Assembly (NCBI GenBank): GCA_903910555.1 | Contig: CAIVZZ010000005.1 | Span: 62,001 to 126,000 of the forward strand | Length of the DNA stretch: 64,000 bases | Direction of reading: 5' to 3' | Origin: an uncultured Gemmatimonadota bacterium | GTDB taxonomy: Bacteria; Gemmatimonadota; Gemmatimonadetes; Gemmatimonadales; Gemmatimonadaceae | Part shown: positions 863 to 55,683 of the stretch, piece by piece | How the letters are laid out: the number at the start of each line of letters is the position of its first letter | Position numbering within the stretch: position 1 is the first letter of the stretch | Position numbers and translations under genes: made by a program | The notes under the pieces: model-generated | The model's database searches: none | Told to the model about the DNA's origin: nothing | Seen by the model: the letters and a program-made list of their open reading frames with translations, nothing else

Positions 863-880
863 GAGAGTATCGGCTCTTCA

Positions 881-986
881 TCTAGTGTCTTCTGTCTAGC
901 GTCTGAAAACCCGCAGTTTGCGGTTCTCAGCTCACAACTGCGAACCGCGGGTTGTCAGACTCAAGATTCAAGACTTCAGACTCGAG
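881..986. repeat. Palindromic intergenic repeat, GTCTAG family, copy A
   Basis: This is an imperfect inverted repeat of about 106 bp between two plus-strand genes. The inner stem pairs TCTGAAAACCCGCAGTTTGC on the left with the GCGAACCGCGGGTTGTCAGA side on the right. The outer arms are degenerate units such as TCTAGTGTCT and AGACTTCAGACT. A possible -10 box (TATAGT, 1015-1020) for the next gene lies just outside it. There is no T-tract. Confidence 0.85.
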
Positions 987-1046
987 AAATTGTGTCCCAC
1001 GGGTCAGACGCAGATATAGTTAAAGTATCCCACACCGGATCTGCCC

Positions 1047-17657: not shown

Positions 17658-17660
17658 TTC

Positions 17661-17780
17661 TCTAGAGTCTGCAGTCTTGTGTCTAGAGTCTGAAAACCCG
17701 CGGTTCGTCGTTCACAGCTGTGAACCGCGAACAGCGGGTTTTCAGACGCTAGACAGTAGACCTTAGACGCAAGACGCAAA
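17661..17780. repeat. Palindromic intergenic repeat, GTCTAG family, copy B
   Basis: This is an inverted repeat of about 120 bp filling the gap between the convergent gltA and mutY genes. The centre TTCACAGCTGTGAA is a perfect palindrome, flanked by GAAAACCCGC on the left and GCGGGTTTTC on the right, and by GTCTAGAGTCT / AGACGCTAGAC arms. It could act as a two-way terminator here, although there is no T-tract. Confidence 0.88.
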
Positions 17781-20244: not shown

Positions 20245-21539
20245 TACGACACGGTCTTGGTTTTGCGCTTCAGGAAATCCATCAGGATGAACTGGCCGAG
20301 CGACATCGTATTCGTGAAGTACGCGCGCCCGCGCGTGATGCTCGAGACCATCTTCACGAACTCGACAAGAGCGCGATCGCGCGCGAGCATGAAAGTGTTG
20401 ATCATGATGCCGGAACGGCGGCAGTCCGTGACTTCTTTGAGTGTCTCCTGCAGCACGTACGCATCCAGCCCCATCGAATTCTTATAGATGCGGCCGTCGG
20501 GCATCGTGAGCGCGCTTGGTTTGCCATCGGTGATCATCACGATCTGGCGCATGTCTTTCCGCTGCGCCATCAAGAGGCGCTTCGCGATTTTCAATCCCTC
20601 GGCCGTGTTCGTGTGATACGGGCCGACCTGCGCGCCCGCGAGCGCGGCGAGCGGGATCTCTTCAGCTGAATCGTGAAAGAGCACGATCTTCAGCGTGTCG
20701 CCGGGAAACTGCGTGCGGATCAGATGGGTCAGTGCGAGCGCGACCTTTTTAGCCGGCGTGAAGCGATCTTCGCCGTATAGAACCATCGAGTGCGAGCAGT
20801 CGAGCATCAGCACGGTCGCGCAGCTCGAGCGATACTCGGCTTGGCGCACCATCAGGTCGCCATAGTCCAGGTCGATCGGGACGTCGAGATTGCCGTTTCG
20901 CGCGAGTGCGTTCTTGAGTGTCTCGTTGACGTCGATGTTCAGCGTGTCGCCGAATTCGTACGGTTTGCTCCAGCCATCCGATTCGATTCCGGTCGCGAGG
21001 TACGCGGTGTCGTGCGCGCCGAAGTTCGACTTGCCCAGCGACGATAGAATTCCGCGCAGCGCTTTGTAGCCGAGGAAGTCGACGCCTTTGTCCGTGAGAT
21101 TGAACTGCACGTCGCGCGCCGCGGCCTGCGCCAGGCCGCCGGGGCCGGTGACGTTCTGGTGGCCGGCCGGCATCTCGGGAGCTTGGTCGAGGTTGAGATA
21201 GCCTTCGTCCATCAGCCGTTTTACGATGCTGTCGAGCATTTCGGCGAGCTTCTGCTCGGAGAGTTCGTCGCCATCGCCACGGAGGGCGTCGAGCATCTCG
21301 GGCGTCATCTGCCCGCTTTCGATCAGCGCGTCGAGGATCGCCTGCTTGAGCGCGTCGAGTGAATGGTCGGCGTCATCGCCGGTCTCGCCCCAGTAGGGGT
21401 GGAAGTGCGACCCGCCCGCGAATCCAGATTGGAGAAGAAAGTCAGCGAGGTTGTCGAGCAGCGACTGGAGATCGACGGCGTCTCCCATCGCGGGGCTGAA
21501 TTTTGTGTAGGTATGGGAACGCATGGCTGCATTGAACAT
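20244..21539 (-). CDS. VWA domain protein (MoxR/chelatase partner type)
   Basis: This is a 431-residue cytosolic protein. The N-terminal half is helical and acidic (residues 30-130, with long leucine-rich helices around [11 protein letters not shown] and [19 protein letters not shown]). The C-terminal half is a von Willebrand A domain with a complete MIDAS: D247-C-S-H-S, a threonine in [11 protein letters not shown], and the aspartate in [14 protein letters not shown] proteins of this type pair with MoxR/ChlI-like AAA ATPases in metal insertion or chaperone-like complexes. The likely partner is encoded at 26188-27666, 4.6 kb upstream on the same strand. It is coupled to the nickel transporter by a one-base overlap. 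Confidence 0.86.
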
Positions 21540-21565: not shown

Positions 21566-21683
21566 AGTCTGGAGTCTAGAGTCTGTTGTCTAGCGTCTGA
21601 AAACCTGCCGTTTGCGGTTCAGAGTTGTGAACTGCGTACTGCGGGTTTTCAGACGCTAGACAGAAGACCTTAGACTGTAGACT
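21566..21683. repeat. Palindromic intergenic repeat, GTCTAG family, copy C
   Basis: This is an inverted repeat of about 118 bp in the gap between the divergent VWA and four-helix-bundle genes. Its core runs from TCTGAAAACCTGCCGTTTGC to GCGTACTGCGGGTTTTCAGA; the arms contain GTCTAGAGTCTGTTGTCTAG and AGACGCTAGACAGAAGACC. A divergent position is incompatible with a pure terminator role. Confidence 0.9.
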
Positions 21684-21741
21684 GGCTGGCGGCGGAAGGA
21701 TTCGCCGCGAAATAGCGCGATGACGGTCGCGCGACAGGTCG

Positions 21742-22146
21742 ATGCTACCGTGCACCGTGCACAACTTTCGCCGTCTACTGGTCTGGCAAAAAGCTCACGC
21801 AGCAGTCGTCGAGATTGAGCGGCTTGTCATGAGGATCCCGCGACGGGACAATGCAGAGCTCATCAGCCAGCTTCGACGGGCCGCAGTTTCGATTCCCGGA
21901 AACATCGTTCACGGCAGTTGCCGTTCGACCGACCGGGAGTTCGTCCGCTATCTCGGAATCGCTCTCGCGTCGGCGGGTGAAGTCGAGTATCACCTCGAAC
22001 TGGCTGCTGACACCGGAAGGATTCCTCGCGACGAATTTGAAAAGCGGCGGGCCGAAGTCGCCGAGATCAGTCGAATGCTGGTTGGGTTAATTCATCGATT
22101 CAATTCCAGCAGCGCCCCGCCAGTCTCGAGTGCAGACGTAGTCTAG
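21742..22146 (+). CDS. Four-helix-bundle protein (23S rRNA intervening-sequence protein family)
   Basis: This is a 134-residue, fully helical protein of the family first found in 23S rRNA intervening sequences. It shows the usual opening LLVWQKAHAAVVEIERL, the central LISQLRRAAVSIPGNIVHG with the conserved SIPxNI turn, and REFVRYLGIALASAGEVEYHLELA. ATG at 21742 is used; a GTG at 21757 would give the more typical short N-terminus. Family members form small multimers and lack a defined enzymatic role; the related Avd protein serves diversity-generating retroelements, but no reverse transcriptase is present. The gene is bracketed by repeat copies C and D, and its last codons (GTA GTC TAG) are part of copy D. 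Confidence 0.9.
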   Translation: MLPCTVHNFRRLLVWQKAHAAVVEIERLVMRIPRRDNAELISQLRRAAVSIPGNIVHGSCRSTDREFVRYLGIALASAGEVEYHLELAADTGRIPRDEFEKRRAEVAEISRMLVGLIHRFNSSSAPPVSSADVV

Positions 22147-22257
22147 CGTCTAAGGTCTGTTGTCTAGCGTCTGAAAACCTGCTGTTGTCAGTTCACGGCT
22201 GTGAACTACGTACTGCGGGTTTTCAGACGCTAGACACAAGACTCCAGACTCTAGACT
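22140..22257. repeat. Palindromic intergenic repeat, GTCTAG family, copy D
   Basis: This is an inverted repeat of about 118 bp. The left arm starts inside the four-helix-bundle gene and supplies its TAG stop. The outer 40 bases of the two arms align without gaps as inverted copies, for example GTTGTCTAGCGTCTGAAAAC on the left against the complement of GTTTTCAGACGCTAGACAC on the right. It ends 25 bp before the MFS start codon. Confidence 0.9.
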
Positions 22258-22282: not shown

Positions 22283-23518
22283 ATGGCCACCGCCGTGCGC
22301 TCCGCAAACCCGTTTCGAACCCTCGCCCGGCACCGGAATTTCCGGCTTTTCTGGTTTGGGCAGACGATTTCGCTCGTCGGAACATGGATGCAGCAGATCG
22401 CGACGGGGTGGCTCGCGCTCCAGCTCACCAACAGCGCGTACATGGTCGGATTGGTGGCCGCGGTTGGATCGCTGCCGATTCTGCTCTTCTCGCTGCCGGC
22501 CGGCGTGCTTGCCGATCGCACCGACAAGCTGCGAATAGTCCGCATCGCGCAATCGCTGATGCTCGTGGAAGCGTCGGTGCTCTGGTGGTTCGCGTGGTCC
22601 GGACACATCACGATTCACTGGCTGCTCGCGCTGGTGCTCGCGGGCGGAGTGCTCTCGTCGATCGAGATTCCAGCGCGACAGTCGCTGATTATTGAACTCG
22701 TCGTGAAAGACGACTTGCTCGATGCGATCGCGCTCAACTCAGGCGGATTCAATCTCGCGCGAATTCTTGGACCTACCGTCGCAACGCTCGTCATTGCATC
22801 GCTCGGACTTTCATGGTGCTTTGGATTCAACGCGCTGAGCTATCTCGCCGTGCTCATCGGGCTGGCGATGATCCGGCTTCCGAAGAGCATCCCGTCCGTT
22901 GAGGCCGCGGCGTACCCATCGGCAATCGCGGGAATGCGCGAGGCGCTTCTCTACGTTCGCAACGATCGCATCATGTGGATTCTCATGCGGATCGTCTGCG
23001 TGTTTTCAATCTTGAGCGTGCCGATTCTCACGCTGCTGCCGGTGGTCGCGCGTGACCAGCTGCACCTCGACGTGTCGGGGTACGGCCTCTTGATGACCTG
23101 CTACGGTGTGGGCGCGACGCTCGGCGCGCTCGCGATTGCATCGCAGGGAGGGAAGCTCAAACGGGGAAGAACGCTCACGATCAGCTCGCTTGGCCTGGGC
23201 ATCACGATCCTCGCGTTCTCGCTTTCACATTCGGTGATATTCTGCGGCGTGATGCTGTTCGCGCTCGGAGTCGCCGTTATCACCAACAACGCGCTGATCA
23301 ACACGCTGCTCCAGCACCGCGTGCCGAACGAACTGCGCGGGCGGGTGATGTCGATCTATGTGATGGTGTACGTGGGGATGAATCCGGTGGGATCGTATAT
23401 CGGCGGATGGGTGGCGTCGTATGTCGGGGCGCAGTGGGCAATCGGGGGGATGGCGGCGCCGATGGTCTTGTTTACGATTTGGGCGTTTCGGCACTACAGC
23501 GAGCTACGGCGAGCGTGA
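22283..23518 (+). CDS. MFS transporter, EntS/DHA3-like exporter
   Basis: This is a 411-residue major facilitator with 12 predicted helices. The N-terminus (NFRLFWFGQTISLVGTWMQQ), the loop 2-3 motif GVLADRTDK, and the second-half repeat VPNELRGRVMSIYVMVYVG are those of the MFS_3/EntS-like drug or siderophore exporters of the inner membrane. The substrate cannot be inferred because no biosynthetic genes are adjacent. It lies immediately after palindrome copy D and ends 10 bp before a perfect hairpin shared with the convergent histidine kinase. Confidence 0.9.
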   Translation: MATAVRSANPFRTLARHRNFRLFWFGQTISLVGTWMQQIATGWLALQLTNSAYMVGLVAAVGSLPILLFSLPAGVLADRTDKLRIVRIAQSLMLVEASVLWWFAWSGHITIHWLLALVLAGGVLSSIEIPARQSLIIELVVKDDLLDAIALNSGGFNLARILGPTVATLVIASLGLSWCFGFNALSYLAVLIGLAMIRLPKSIPSVEAAAYPSAIAGMREALLYVRNDRIMWILMRIVCVFSILSVPILTLLPVVARDQLHLDVSGYGLLMTCYGVGATLGALAIASQGGKLKRGRTLTISSLGLGITILAFSLSHSVIFCGVMLFALGVAVITNNALINTLLQHRVPNELRGRVMSIYVMVYVGMNPVGSYIGGWVASYVGAQWAIGGMAAPMVLFTIWAFRHYSELRRA

Positions 23519-30247: not shown

Positions 30248-30362
30248 AGTCTGGTGTCTAAAGTCTTCTGTCTAGAGTCTGATAACCCGCTCTCGTCAGT
30301 TCACAGCTCTGAACCGCGAACTGCGGGTGATCAGACGCTAGATGCAAGACATTAGACAGAAG
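30248..30362. repeat. Palindromic intergenic repeat, GTCTAG family, copy E
   Basis: This is an inverted repeat of about 115 bp between the convergent lipoprotein and ygfZ genes. The core is TCTGATAACCCGC ... GCGGGTGATCAGA around AGTTCACAGCTCTGAAC, with arms GTCTTCTGTCTAGAGTCT and AGACGCTAGATGCAAGACA. The paired changes GATAAC/GTGATC preserve part of the stem. It sits just beyond a bona fide terminator, so it is not needed for termination. Confidence 0.87.
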
Positions 30363-30371
30363 TAAACTGCC

Positions 30372-38623: not shown

Positions 38624-38670
38624 GCGGGAAACTTAGCGAAGCGAGGATCGGTGTGTGGTATTCAGTTCAA

Positions 38671-38809
38671 AGTCTACAGTCTACAGTCTAGAGTCTGAGA
38701 ACCTGCCGTTTGCAGTTGACGGCTGTGAACTGCGTACCGCGGGTTGTCAGACGCTAGACGCTAGACACTAGACACCACACACCAGACACCACACACCAGA
38801 CTGCAGACC
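38671..38809. repeat. Palindromic intergenic repeat, GTCTAG family, copy F (expanded arm)
   Basis: This is an inverted repeat of about 139 bp between two minus-strand genes. The left arm is a near-perfect heptad array (AGTCTAC, AGTCTAC, AGTCTAG, AGTCTGAG). The right arm contains CTAGACG/CTAGACA units and then a duplicated ACCACACACCAGAC unit. The core TGCCGTTTGCAGTTGAC ... GTGAACTGCGTACCGCGGG is closest to copies C and D. Confidence 0.9.
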
Positions 38810-54086: not shown

Positions 54087-54098
54087 ACTGCATACCAC

Positions 54099-54243
54099 GA
54101 GTGAACCGTTAACCACTAACTGTTGGTCGGTGTTCTGTTAAAAAATCAGTCCTGGCATCGAGCTGCGTCGAAGCGGGCCGTGGCCAGGACTGATTTTCTT
54201 ACCTTGGTTAACCAACCAACAGTTAGTAGTTGACAGTTCACTC
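54099..54243. terminator. Nested double inverted repeat between convergent genes (GTTAAC family)
   Basis: The outer arms (54099-54127 and 54215-54243) read GAGTGAACCGTTAACCACT... and ...AGTTGACAGTTCACTC, the same sequence as the 23.5-kb hairpin. Inside them is a perfect 15-bp stem, AAAATCAGTCCTGGC (54142-54156) and GCCAGGACTGATTTT (54183-54197), A-rich on one side and T-rich on the other, which is a good two-way terminator. Confidence 0.8.
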
Positions 54244-54255
54244 GCCGTTGCCCTT

Positions 54256-54678
54256 TCAACTAACCAAGCCATTCATCGGCGCCACCGGCGCCCCCACACG
54301 GACGTGCAGAAACACCTCCGCTCGCAGCTCCCCGTCGATATCCACTTTCATCGTGTGTGGCCCCGCATGCTGCAGCGGCAGATCGATCGCCGCGATCACG
54401 GGAATATCCAGCTCGTACGAGCCCGCCGGCGGTTTGCCGACTTCGATCTCGCCCGACGATGACCAGATCTCTTCGCCGCCCGGCCCCATCCAGCCGAACG
54501 CGAGTGTGTGCATCCCCTCGTCGCCCTCCTCGGCTTTCAGGCGCACGACGAGCGTCGCGCGCGGGTGCACGGCGGGAAGCGCACCGATCTGCAGCGCGTC
54601 GAACACGCCGAGGATGTTGAGCTTCCCTTCCTGGGAAATGTTGGCGGCGTCGGCGAAGAGAGCGAAGGAAACATGCAT
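54256..54678 (-). CDS. Uncharacterised cytosolic beta-rich protein (DUF6941-like)
   Basis: This is a 140-residue protein with no signal peptide. It opens HVSFALFADAANISQEGKLNILGVFD and continues with HPRATLVVRLKAEEGDEGMHTLAF and GPHTMKVDIDGELRAEVFLHV. This alternating pattern predicts a beta-sandwich. It resembles the small DUF6941 family seen across many phyla, which has no known role. Its ATG lies in an ATGCATGC palindrome beside a GC-rich hairpin that separates it from the divergent transporter gene. Confidence 0.7.
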   Translation of the reverse strand: MHVSFALFADAANISQEGKLNILGVFDALQIGALPAVHPRATLVVRLKAEEGDEGMHTLAFGWMGPGGEEIWSSSGEIEVGKPPAGSYELDIPVIAAIDLPLQHAGPHTMKVDIDGELRAEVFLHVRVGAPVAPMNGLVS

Positions 54679-54690
54679 GCTTGAAACTAC

Positions 54691-54752
54691 AGACGGCGGA
54701 CGGCGGACGGCAGACGGCAGCTGAGTTTTCCGCCGTCTGCCGTCCGCCGTCT
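54691..54752. repeat. GC-rich palindrome of AGACGGCGG units
   Basis: The left arm AGACGGCGGACGGCGGACGG plus CAGACGGC pairs with CCGCCGTCTGCCGTCCGCCG plus TCT around the loop AGCTGAGTTTT. The left arm has one extra CGGACGG unit. It fills most of the 90-bp gap between two divergent genes, flanked on both sides by ATGCATGC. Confidence 0.85.
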
Positions 54753-54768
54753 TTGGTTACTTTTATGC

Positions 54769-55683
54769 ATGCCTGACGAGTCACGCCGAAACGTTCTGGT
54801 CACCGAGGGGCTGCTGGTGCTCATGTCCATCATCTGGGGCATGAACTTCGCCGTCATGAAATACGGCACCGACGTCCTCGAACCGTTCGCGTACAACGGG
54901 GTGCGGCTCGCGATCGGTTCGATCGTGATGCTCGCGATCCTCTATACGCGTAAAATGCCGCACCTTCCGTGGCGCGACATTCGCGGACTCATGCTGCTCG
55001 GATCGCTCGGGACCGGTCTCTACCAGCTCTTCTTCATCACCGGCCTCGCGATGACGCGCGCCGGCACCGCATCGCTCGTGATCGCATCGAGTCCCGCGAT
55101 CATCGCAATCGTCGGCCGGTTCATGGGCGTCGAGAAAGTCAGCGGGCGGGCGGTGTGGGGGATCGTGATTTCGCTCGCGGGAATCGCGTTTGTGATTCTC
55201 ACGTCGGCCGATTCGAACGAAGGAAATCCGTCGATGGTTGGCGATCTCCTCGTGCTCGCGTCGGTCGTCTGCTGGTCGTTCTACACGCATCTCATGCGGC
55301 CATACACGGTGCGCATCGACGGAATTCAGATTGCAACCTGGTCGCTGATCGGCGGCACGATACCCGTTTTCCTGATCGCGATTCCGTCGATGATGCGCGT
55401 GCACTGGGCTGCGGTCGCACCGCTGACGTGGGGAGCGATTCTCTACAGCGGCATCGGCAGCATGGGGATCGCGTATTTATTTTGGTATCGGGGGGTGCGC
55501 GTGATCGGGTCGACCCGAACGGCGATGTTTTCGAATCTCCAGCCGATCGTCACGCTTGCGGGATCGTGGCCGCTGCTCGGTGAGCAGCCAACGCTCGTGC
55601 AGGGAGTCGGCGTCGCTGCGGTGCTCGGCGGACTTCTGCTCACGCGCCAGCCTTCCGCACCTGAACCCGCGCACGGCGAATGA
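54769..55683 (+). CDS. EamA/DMT-family transporter
   Basis: This is a 304-residue inner-membrane protein with ten predicted helices in two EamA repeats. The first begins LVLMSIIWGMNFAVMKYG and the second begins LVLASVVCWSFYTHLMRPY; each ends with the conserved glycine/proline-rich helix (GTASLVIASSPAIIAIVGRF; STRTAMFSNLQPIVTLAGSW). Members move metabolites such as amino acids or purines; the substrate is not readable. It is the first gene of an overlapping run; its TGA overlaps the next ATG (ATGA). Confidence 0.92.
   Translation: MPDESRRNVLVTEGLLVLMSIIWGMNFAVMKYGTDVLEPFAYNGVRLAIGSIVMLAILYTRKMPHLPWRDIRGLMLLGSLGTGLYQLFFITGLAMTRAGTASLVIASSPAIIAIVGRFMGVEKVSGRAVWGIVISLAGIAFVILTSADSNEGNPSMVGDLLVLASVVCWSFYTHLMRPYTVRIDGIQIATWSLIGGTIPVFLIAIPSMMRVHWAAVAPLTWGAILYSGIGSMGIAYLFWYRGVRVIGSTRTAMFSNLQPIVTLAGSWPLLGEQPTLVQGVGVAAVLGGLLLTRQPSAPEPAHGE

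Follow-up and report, generated by a model that had tools for sequence, protein, structure and literature searches.

Background

The intervening sequences (IVSs) of bacterial 23S ribosomal RNA (rRNA), seen in Leptospira, Coxiella and Salmonella, have inverted terminal repeats that pair into a stem, whose loop holds an open reading frame (ORF) for a protein of the PF05635/S23p family; they are excised by RNase III (PMC4990558). In the Coxiella IVS tandem GACAGAT heptamers, whose number varies between strains, lie just upstream of the S23p ORF (PMC4990558). Genes of the REP-associated tyrosine transposases (RAYTs) are always flanked by inverted palindromes, the repetitive extragenic palindromes (REPs), which retain their palindromicity as their sequence changes (PMC2817692). 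Heptameric simple sequence repeats (SSRs), such as the intergenic 7-nt units GGGANTN and GGGGAYT of Xanthomonas and Nostoc, are over-represented in bacteria and of unexplained origin, and inverted pairs of GGGANTN are common in Xanthomonas (PMC4692102). Here we describe a PF05635 gene that lies between two palindromes at 21,566-22,257 of a 64,000-nt stretch, hereafter the window, of an uncultured Gemmatimonadaceae genome (contig CAIVZZ010000005.1 of assembly GCA_903910555.1, positions 62,001 to 126,000). We propose, with a probability of about 0.5, to regard this unit as a hairpin element of IVS type that stands free of rRNA, and in which a PF05635 gene sits between inverted tandem arrays of 7-nt, sometimes 8-nt, units. 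Below, G000 denotes the genome of the window, other G numbers related genomes and L numbers individual loci.

Results

A PF05635 gene between two palindromic heptamer arrays

The initial annotation of this stretch had placed a gene of the IVS protein family between two copies, C and D, of a 118-bp palindrome, and both the protein matches and the repeat comparison bear this out. The gene (21742..22146, forward strand) encodes a 134-aa protein that matches Pfam PF05635 (23S_rRNA_IVP, E=9.6e-30) and NCBIfam TIGR02436. Its predicted fold is a bundle of four helices (mean pLDDT 91), and PDB entries 2GSC (XCC0516 of Xanthomonas campestris) and 2RLD are sequence relatives. Copy C, on the left (21566..21683), and copy D, on the right (22140..22257), have 86% identity when compared directly and 81% complementarity to each other. 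Each is on its own a near-complete palindrome with arms of ~59 nt. Repeat and period-7 analysis shows that copy C opens with the degenerate tandem heptamers GTCTGGA, GTCTAGA, GTCTGTT, GTCTAGC and GTCTGAA (21567-21601), and the second half of copy D has AGACNNN-type heptamers. As had been noted, the TAG stop codon of the gene (22144-22146) falls within copy D, and the unit is closely fitted between two divergent genes: the start codon of the VWA gene ends at 21539, 26 bp off copy C, and the MFS gene starts at 22283, 25 bp off copy D, where about 25 bp had been given for both.

Of 168 predicted genes in 224 kb of G000, only two lie inside an inverted repeat that scores 35 bits or more: the PF05635 gene of the window, at 109 bits, and a second gene, at 41.9 bits. 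As such repeats are this rare, and as the 703-nt cassette stretch folds with z=-16 relative to shuffles, the architecture is not attributable to chance. No match to an rRNA family was found in the window; the gene thus lies within a long stem outside rRNA, as had been proposed, and by its location the cassette is not itself a 23S rRNA IVS. In the close relatives G001 and G005 the VWA-MFS junction holds neither gene nor repeat and measures 92-95 bp, versus 748 bp here. This comparison with an empty site, which the initial annotation had called for, supports the view that the cassette was gained at, or lost from, this junction.

Inverted repeats of differing sequence enclose PF05635 genes

The genome has 11 PF05635 genes, and inverted repeats enclose all 11, with a different sequence for each gene; among the other predicted genes of the 224 kb only 1 of 167 is enclosed (at least 35 bits). 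The enrichment of four-helix-bundle genes at repeats, whose failure would have told against the original proposal, is therefore seen. The more specific expectation that these genes would be bracketed by the window's own repeat family did not hold, that family being present at only 1 of the 11, and we rejected it as a general marker of PF05635 genes. Since the bracketing repeat changes from gene to gene, the association is one with an architecture, inverted tandem heptamers, and not with a single repeat family.

To measure enclosure more widely, the 450-nt flanks of each gene were compared by blastn, with a threshold of at least 30 bits. Enclosed loci account for 84% of 56 in the genus and for 52% of 82 drawn from many phyla, the latter being the best matches to one conserved peptide; pairing flanks of different loci yields 2-4%, and other ORFs of the same loci 3-4%. 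In a separate set from Pseudomonadota 21 of 30 PF05635 loci are enclosed, and several loci on cyanobacterial plasmids are likewise bracketed by inverted repeats. Two heptamer-armed PF05635 genes of cyanobacterial plasmids (L317, 1495-1854; L318, 1495-1863) are situated between cas6 and cas4, and L318 carries a type I-D CRISPR locus. A location within rRNA was rejected for PF05635 loci, as none of 40 cross-phylum loci tested, nor the window, had an rRNA match. Matches to PF05635 elements were absent from 50,697 phage records. Across the family the number of PF05635 copies is patchy, ranging from 0 to 14 per genome.

Period, polarity and mismatches of the arms

The autocorrelation maxima of the arms fall at lags of 7, 14 and 21 nt, with a lag-7 z of 13 in the genus and 20 across phyla; in control segments the lag-7 value is negative. 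The best period is 7 in 35 of 50 elements of the genus, and 7 in 31 and 8 in 11 of 45 cross-phylum elements, with control segments spread over periods; it is 7 in 18 and 8 in 3 of 21 elements from Pseudomonadota. The unit is GTCTNNN in the window cassette, GGGAGTA, GGGAACA, GTGTAGG or TAAAAGC in cyanobacteria, and AGTAGCTG and GACGAGTT (8 nt) in Bacteroidota. Thus, the period stays at 7 nt, sometimes 8, while the sequence of the unit varies freely. The arms also have a fixed polarity, with a G/purine-rich inward strand: of the scored elements that show a G/C difference, 99 of 112 are G-rich on the inward-running strand.

If pairing within the element's own transcript were under selection, G.U should outnumber A.C among the mismatches of the stem. 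The counts in three sets (117 G.U to 94 A.C, 35 to 49 and 13 to 38) hold no such wobble excess, and sense-RNA pairing was on this ground rejected as the selected feature. The pattern favours, short of proof, a process at the DNA level or copying between the arms.

Solo hairpins share sequence with the arms of PF05635 elements

Gene-less copies that share arm sequence with PF05635 elements exist in the genus. The window's repeat family alone has ~26 near-full copies, and fragments besides, in the genome. Counted in sampled stretches, long hairpins number 24 in 224 kb of G000, 3 in 140 kb of G001, 4 in 58 kb of G005 and 4 in 40 kb of G009, and none was seen in 400 kb sampled from four genomes of the genus that have no PF05635 gene. 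In G000 20 of 23 gene-less hairpins match the arms of PF05635 elements, mostly from the same genome, versus 4 of 153 random segments. In the wider family 47 long hairpins were found in 804 kb of genomes with the gene and 6 in 760 kb of those without it, an excess that comes mostly from the genus and a few further genomes. Hence a rule that genomes rich in PF05635 genes are rich in solo hairpins was rejected in general form; it holds in the genus and is uneven in the family.

Solo palindromes also occur in the window itself. Four belong to the repeat family of copies C and D by repeat comparison: 872..989, 17659..17776, 30248..30365 and 38664..38781. The one at 17659..17776 lies between convergent citrate-synthase-like and MutY-like ORFs, and the same slot in G001 and G005 (L253, L254) holds a GGATTCG heptamer hairpin, of a different family from the GTCTNNN hairpin here. 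At the position of 30248..30365 no such hairpin is seen in G001 and G005, and G009 has only a short heptamer stretch. The palindrome at 54098..54244 is of another family and matches the arms of a PF05635 gene of the same genome, that between ychF and pth (L031). The last, at 54672..54771, is made of (GACGGCR)n heptamers, and its nearest arms are those of element L101 in G001; no cognate PF05635 gene was seen in G000, and it is perhaps the orphan of a lost cassette. At a further locus (L215, 15317-16060) a pair of inverted hairpins that belong to the L033 family flanks an ordinary-looking lipoprotein-like gene, with no PF05635 gene.

Arms and proteins across related genomes

Site orthology was called from flanks on draft contigs, so that identical sites that have been rearranged may count as different. 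Among 16 genomes of the genus that were compared, 12 have a PF05635 gene at the ychF-pth junction and four do not, and the proteins of this site are mostly one another's nearest relatives. Their arms are complementary within each species and, between most species, alike only at chance level, the exceptions being the pairs G000/G009 and G011/G017. At this junction in G002 (L245) there is no gene, and the remnants are similar to the arms of G012, which suggests the loss of a cassette. Other junctions are slots in which related species have hairpins of different families. At two sites the gene is flipped between species relative to conserved flanks (L095 versus L028/L072; L107 versus L108/L110), and these inversions probably arose by recombination between the arms.

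The proteins are under purifying selection, with the nonsynonymous divergence (dN) well below the synonymous one (dS) in 12 of 12 pairs (e.g. dS 0.55, dN 0.04). At non-orthologous sites the similarity of arms tracks that of proteins (Mantel r=0.37, reached in 0 of 2000 permutations), a pattern that joint movement of gene and arms, or their coevolution, would produce. The arms pair with each other and remain associated with related proteins.

Discussion

A candidate mechanism

On our reading of the unit as a free-standing hairpin element, gene and arms would spread jointly. The PF05635 protein may bind its cognate hairpin, more likely as DNA than as messenger RNA, and, when bound, promote its copying by host enzymes. 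Realignment of the growing end by one unit of 7 nt during such copying would give rise to the tandem units, and fold-back synthesis could maintain the complementarity of the two arms. On this view a solo hairpin would be either a non-autonomous descendant or a relic, standing to the gene-bearing elements as REPs do to RAYTs. A measuring step is suggested by the combination of a 7-nt period and a freely varying sequence, and a candidate for the measuring device is a ring-shaped pentamer of the PF05635 protein, such a pentamer being reported for the S23p protein of Xanthomonas campestris in work cited by PMC4990558. The initial annotation had raised the ideas of a recognition of the repeat by the protein and of a mobilisation of the unit; the arm-protein correlation, the cognate solo hairpins and the inverted orientations between species are consistent with both.

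We know of no enzyme activity in the PF05635 family. Several results weigh against our proposal. The element encodes no nuclease, transposase or reverse-transcriptase domain, PF05635 being its only domain (Y1 transposases were not searched for genome-wide), and the genome has no RVT_1 (PF00078) match. Inverted repeats are missing around some PF05635 genes (L071, L075), roughly half of the cross-phylum loci score below 30 bits, and beyond the genus long hairpins were absent from the sampled 20-60 kb of several genomes that have 8-11 PF05635 genes. Cassettes within one genome are diverged, the nearest protein at another site here being ~67% identical, so that no recent full-length transposition is visible. 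Target-site duplications were not recognised at the compared junctions, where the intergenic DNA is too diverged for exact ones to be recognisable.

Alternative explanations

An element that acts as RNA would account for part of these observations. Its stem would work in the transcript, where it might be cleaved by RNase III, be excised from operon mRNAs or serve as a bidirectional terminator; its arms would be kept by selection for RNA pairing, and the protein would bind the stem and autoregulate. The cassette does share its protein family and stem layout with the RNase III-excised IVSs of 23S rRNA (PMC4990558), several cyanobacterial cassettes lie within operons, such as those between cas6 and cas4, and the RNA fold is strong (z=-16). 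We nevertheless consider this unlikely, as the stem mismatches show no preference for G.U, solo hairpins are found in every gene orientation, and it leaves unexplained why the period is constant at 7 nt when the sequence of the unit is free.

The hairpins might instead be driven by the host, arising and drifting by ordinary slippage or being moved by an unseen transposase (e.g. a RAYT/IS200-like enzyme encoded elsewhere), with the PF05635 gene a passenger that inserts into hairpins or survives best between them. That solo hairpins outnumber gene-bearing ones, and that one intergenic slot has different hairpin families in related species, would fit such a history; we judge it improbable given that genus genomes free of PF05635 hold no such hairpins in 400 kb, that every solo family matches the arms of one particular gene, usually of the same genome, that arms correlate with proteins and that enclosure recurs across many phyla. 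More improbable still is a domesticated host gene with a cellular role unrelated to the hairpins, which would merely insulate or regulate it. The long retention at ychF-pth in 12 of 16 genus genomes under purifying selection and the armless copies L071 and L075 speak for domestication, against which stand the patchy presence in the family (0-14 copies per genome), the VWA-MFS site that is empty in relatives, the differing sites between species and the solo families of matching sequence.

Comparison with known systems

A free-standing hairpin element of this kind may offer one answer to two old puzzles, the nature of 23S rRNA IVSs and their S23 proteins and the over-representation of 7-nt tandem repeats (PMC4692102). 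The cassette has the look of a hairpin element that is widespread outside rRNA, and this element could account for the unexplained 7-base repeats of bacteria. Tentatively, and with more doubt than confidence, PF05635 genes with inverted heptamer arrays may constitute a widespread class of selfish hairpins for which no transposase is known; the four-helix-bundle protein would drive a reiterative, self-templated copying of its own hairpin in steps of 7 nt. The 23S rRNA IVSs would be a special case of this class, one that came to lie in rRNA, and bacterial heptameric repeats would largely descend from the class. The resulting rule, a PF05635 gene with inverted tandem heptamers of any sequence and cognate solo hairpins, makes a simple prediction for every genome.

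The heptameric SSRs and the short tandemly repeated repetitive (STRR) sequences of cyanobacteria resemble the cassette arms in being tandem intergenic units of 7 nt. Inverted GGGATTC units bracket the PF05635 gene of L340, whose product is, at 66% identity, the nearest homolog found for the Xanthomonas PF05635 protein; the neighbours of this gene, as read from sequence, are accB- and accC-like. In the literature searched, with most subscription journals and preprints outside its scope, we found no earlier link between heptameric repeats and a PF05635 gene. Another four-helix bundle of related fold is Avd, the accessory protein of diversity-generating retroelements (DGRs), which forms a nucleic-acid-binding pentamer. 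Mobility by a DGR-like reverse transcriptase was rejected, the genome being without an RVT_1 match.

The REP/RAYT system, including its REPINs, is similar to the cassette in its inverted palindromes around a gene, its cognate dispersed palindromes and its population structure. In contrast, the protein of the cassette is a four-helix bundle and not a Y1 (HUH) transposase, and its arms are tandem heptamers that are longer and vary between elements. With the 23S rRNA IVSs the cassette shares a stem whose loop holds a PF05635/S23p ORF, and the Coxiella IVS is a known member that also has tandem heptamers; unlike IVSs, cassettes lie outside rRNA in several diverse copies per genome, with long arms, a unit of its own for each gene and families of solo hairpins. 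We therefore read the cassette as a free-standing relative of the 23S rRNA IVSs that has a REP/RAYT-like layout and no known transposase.
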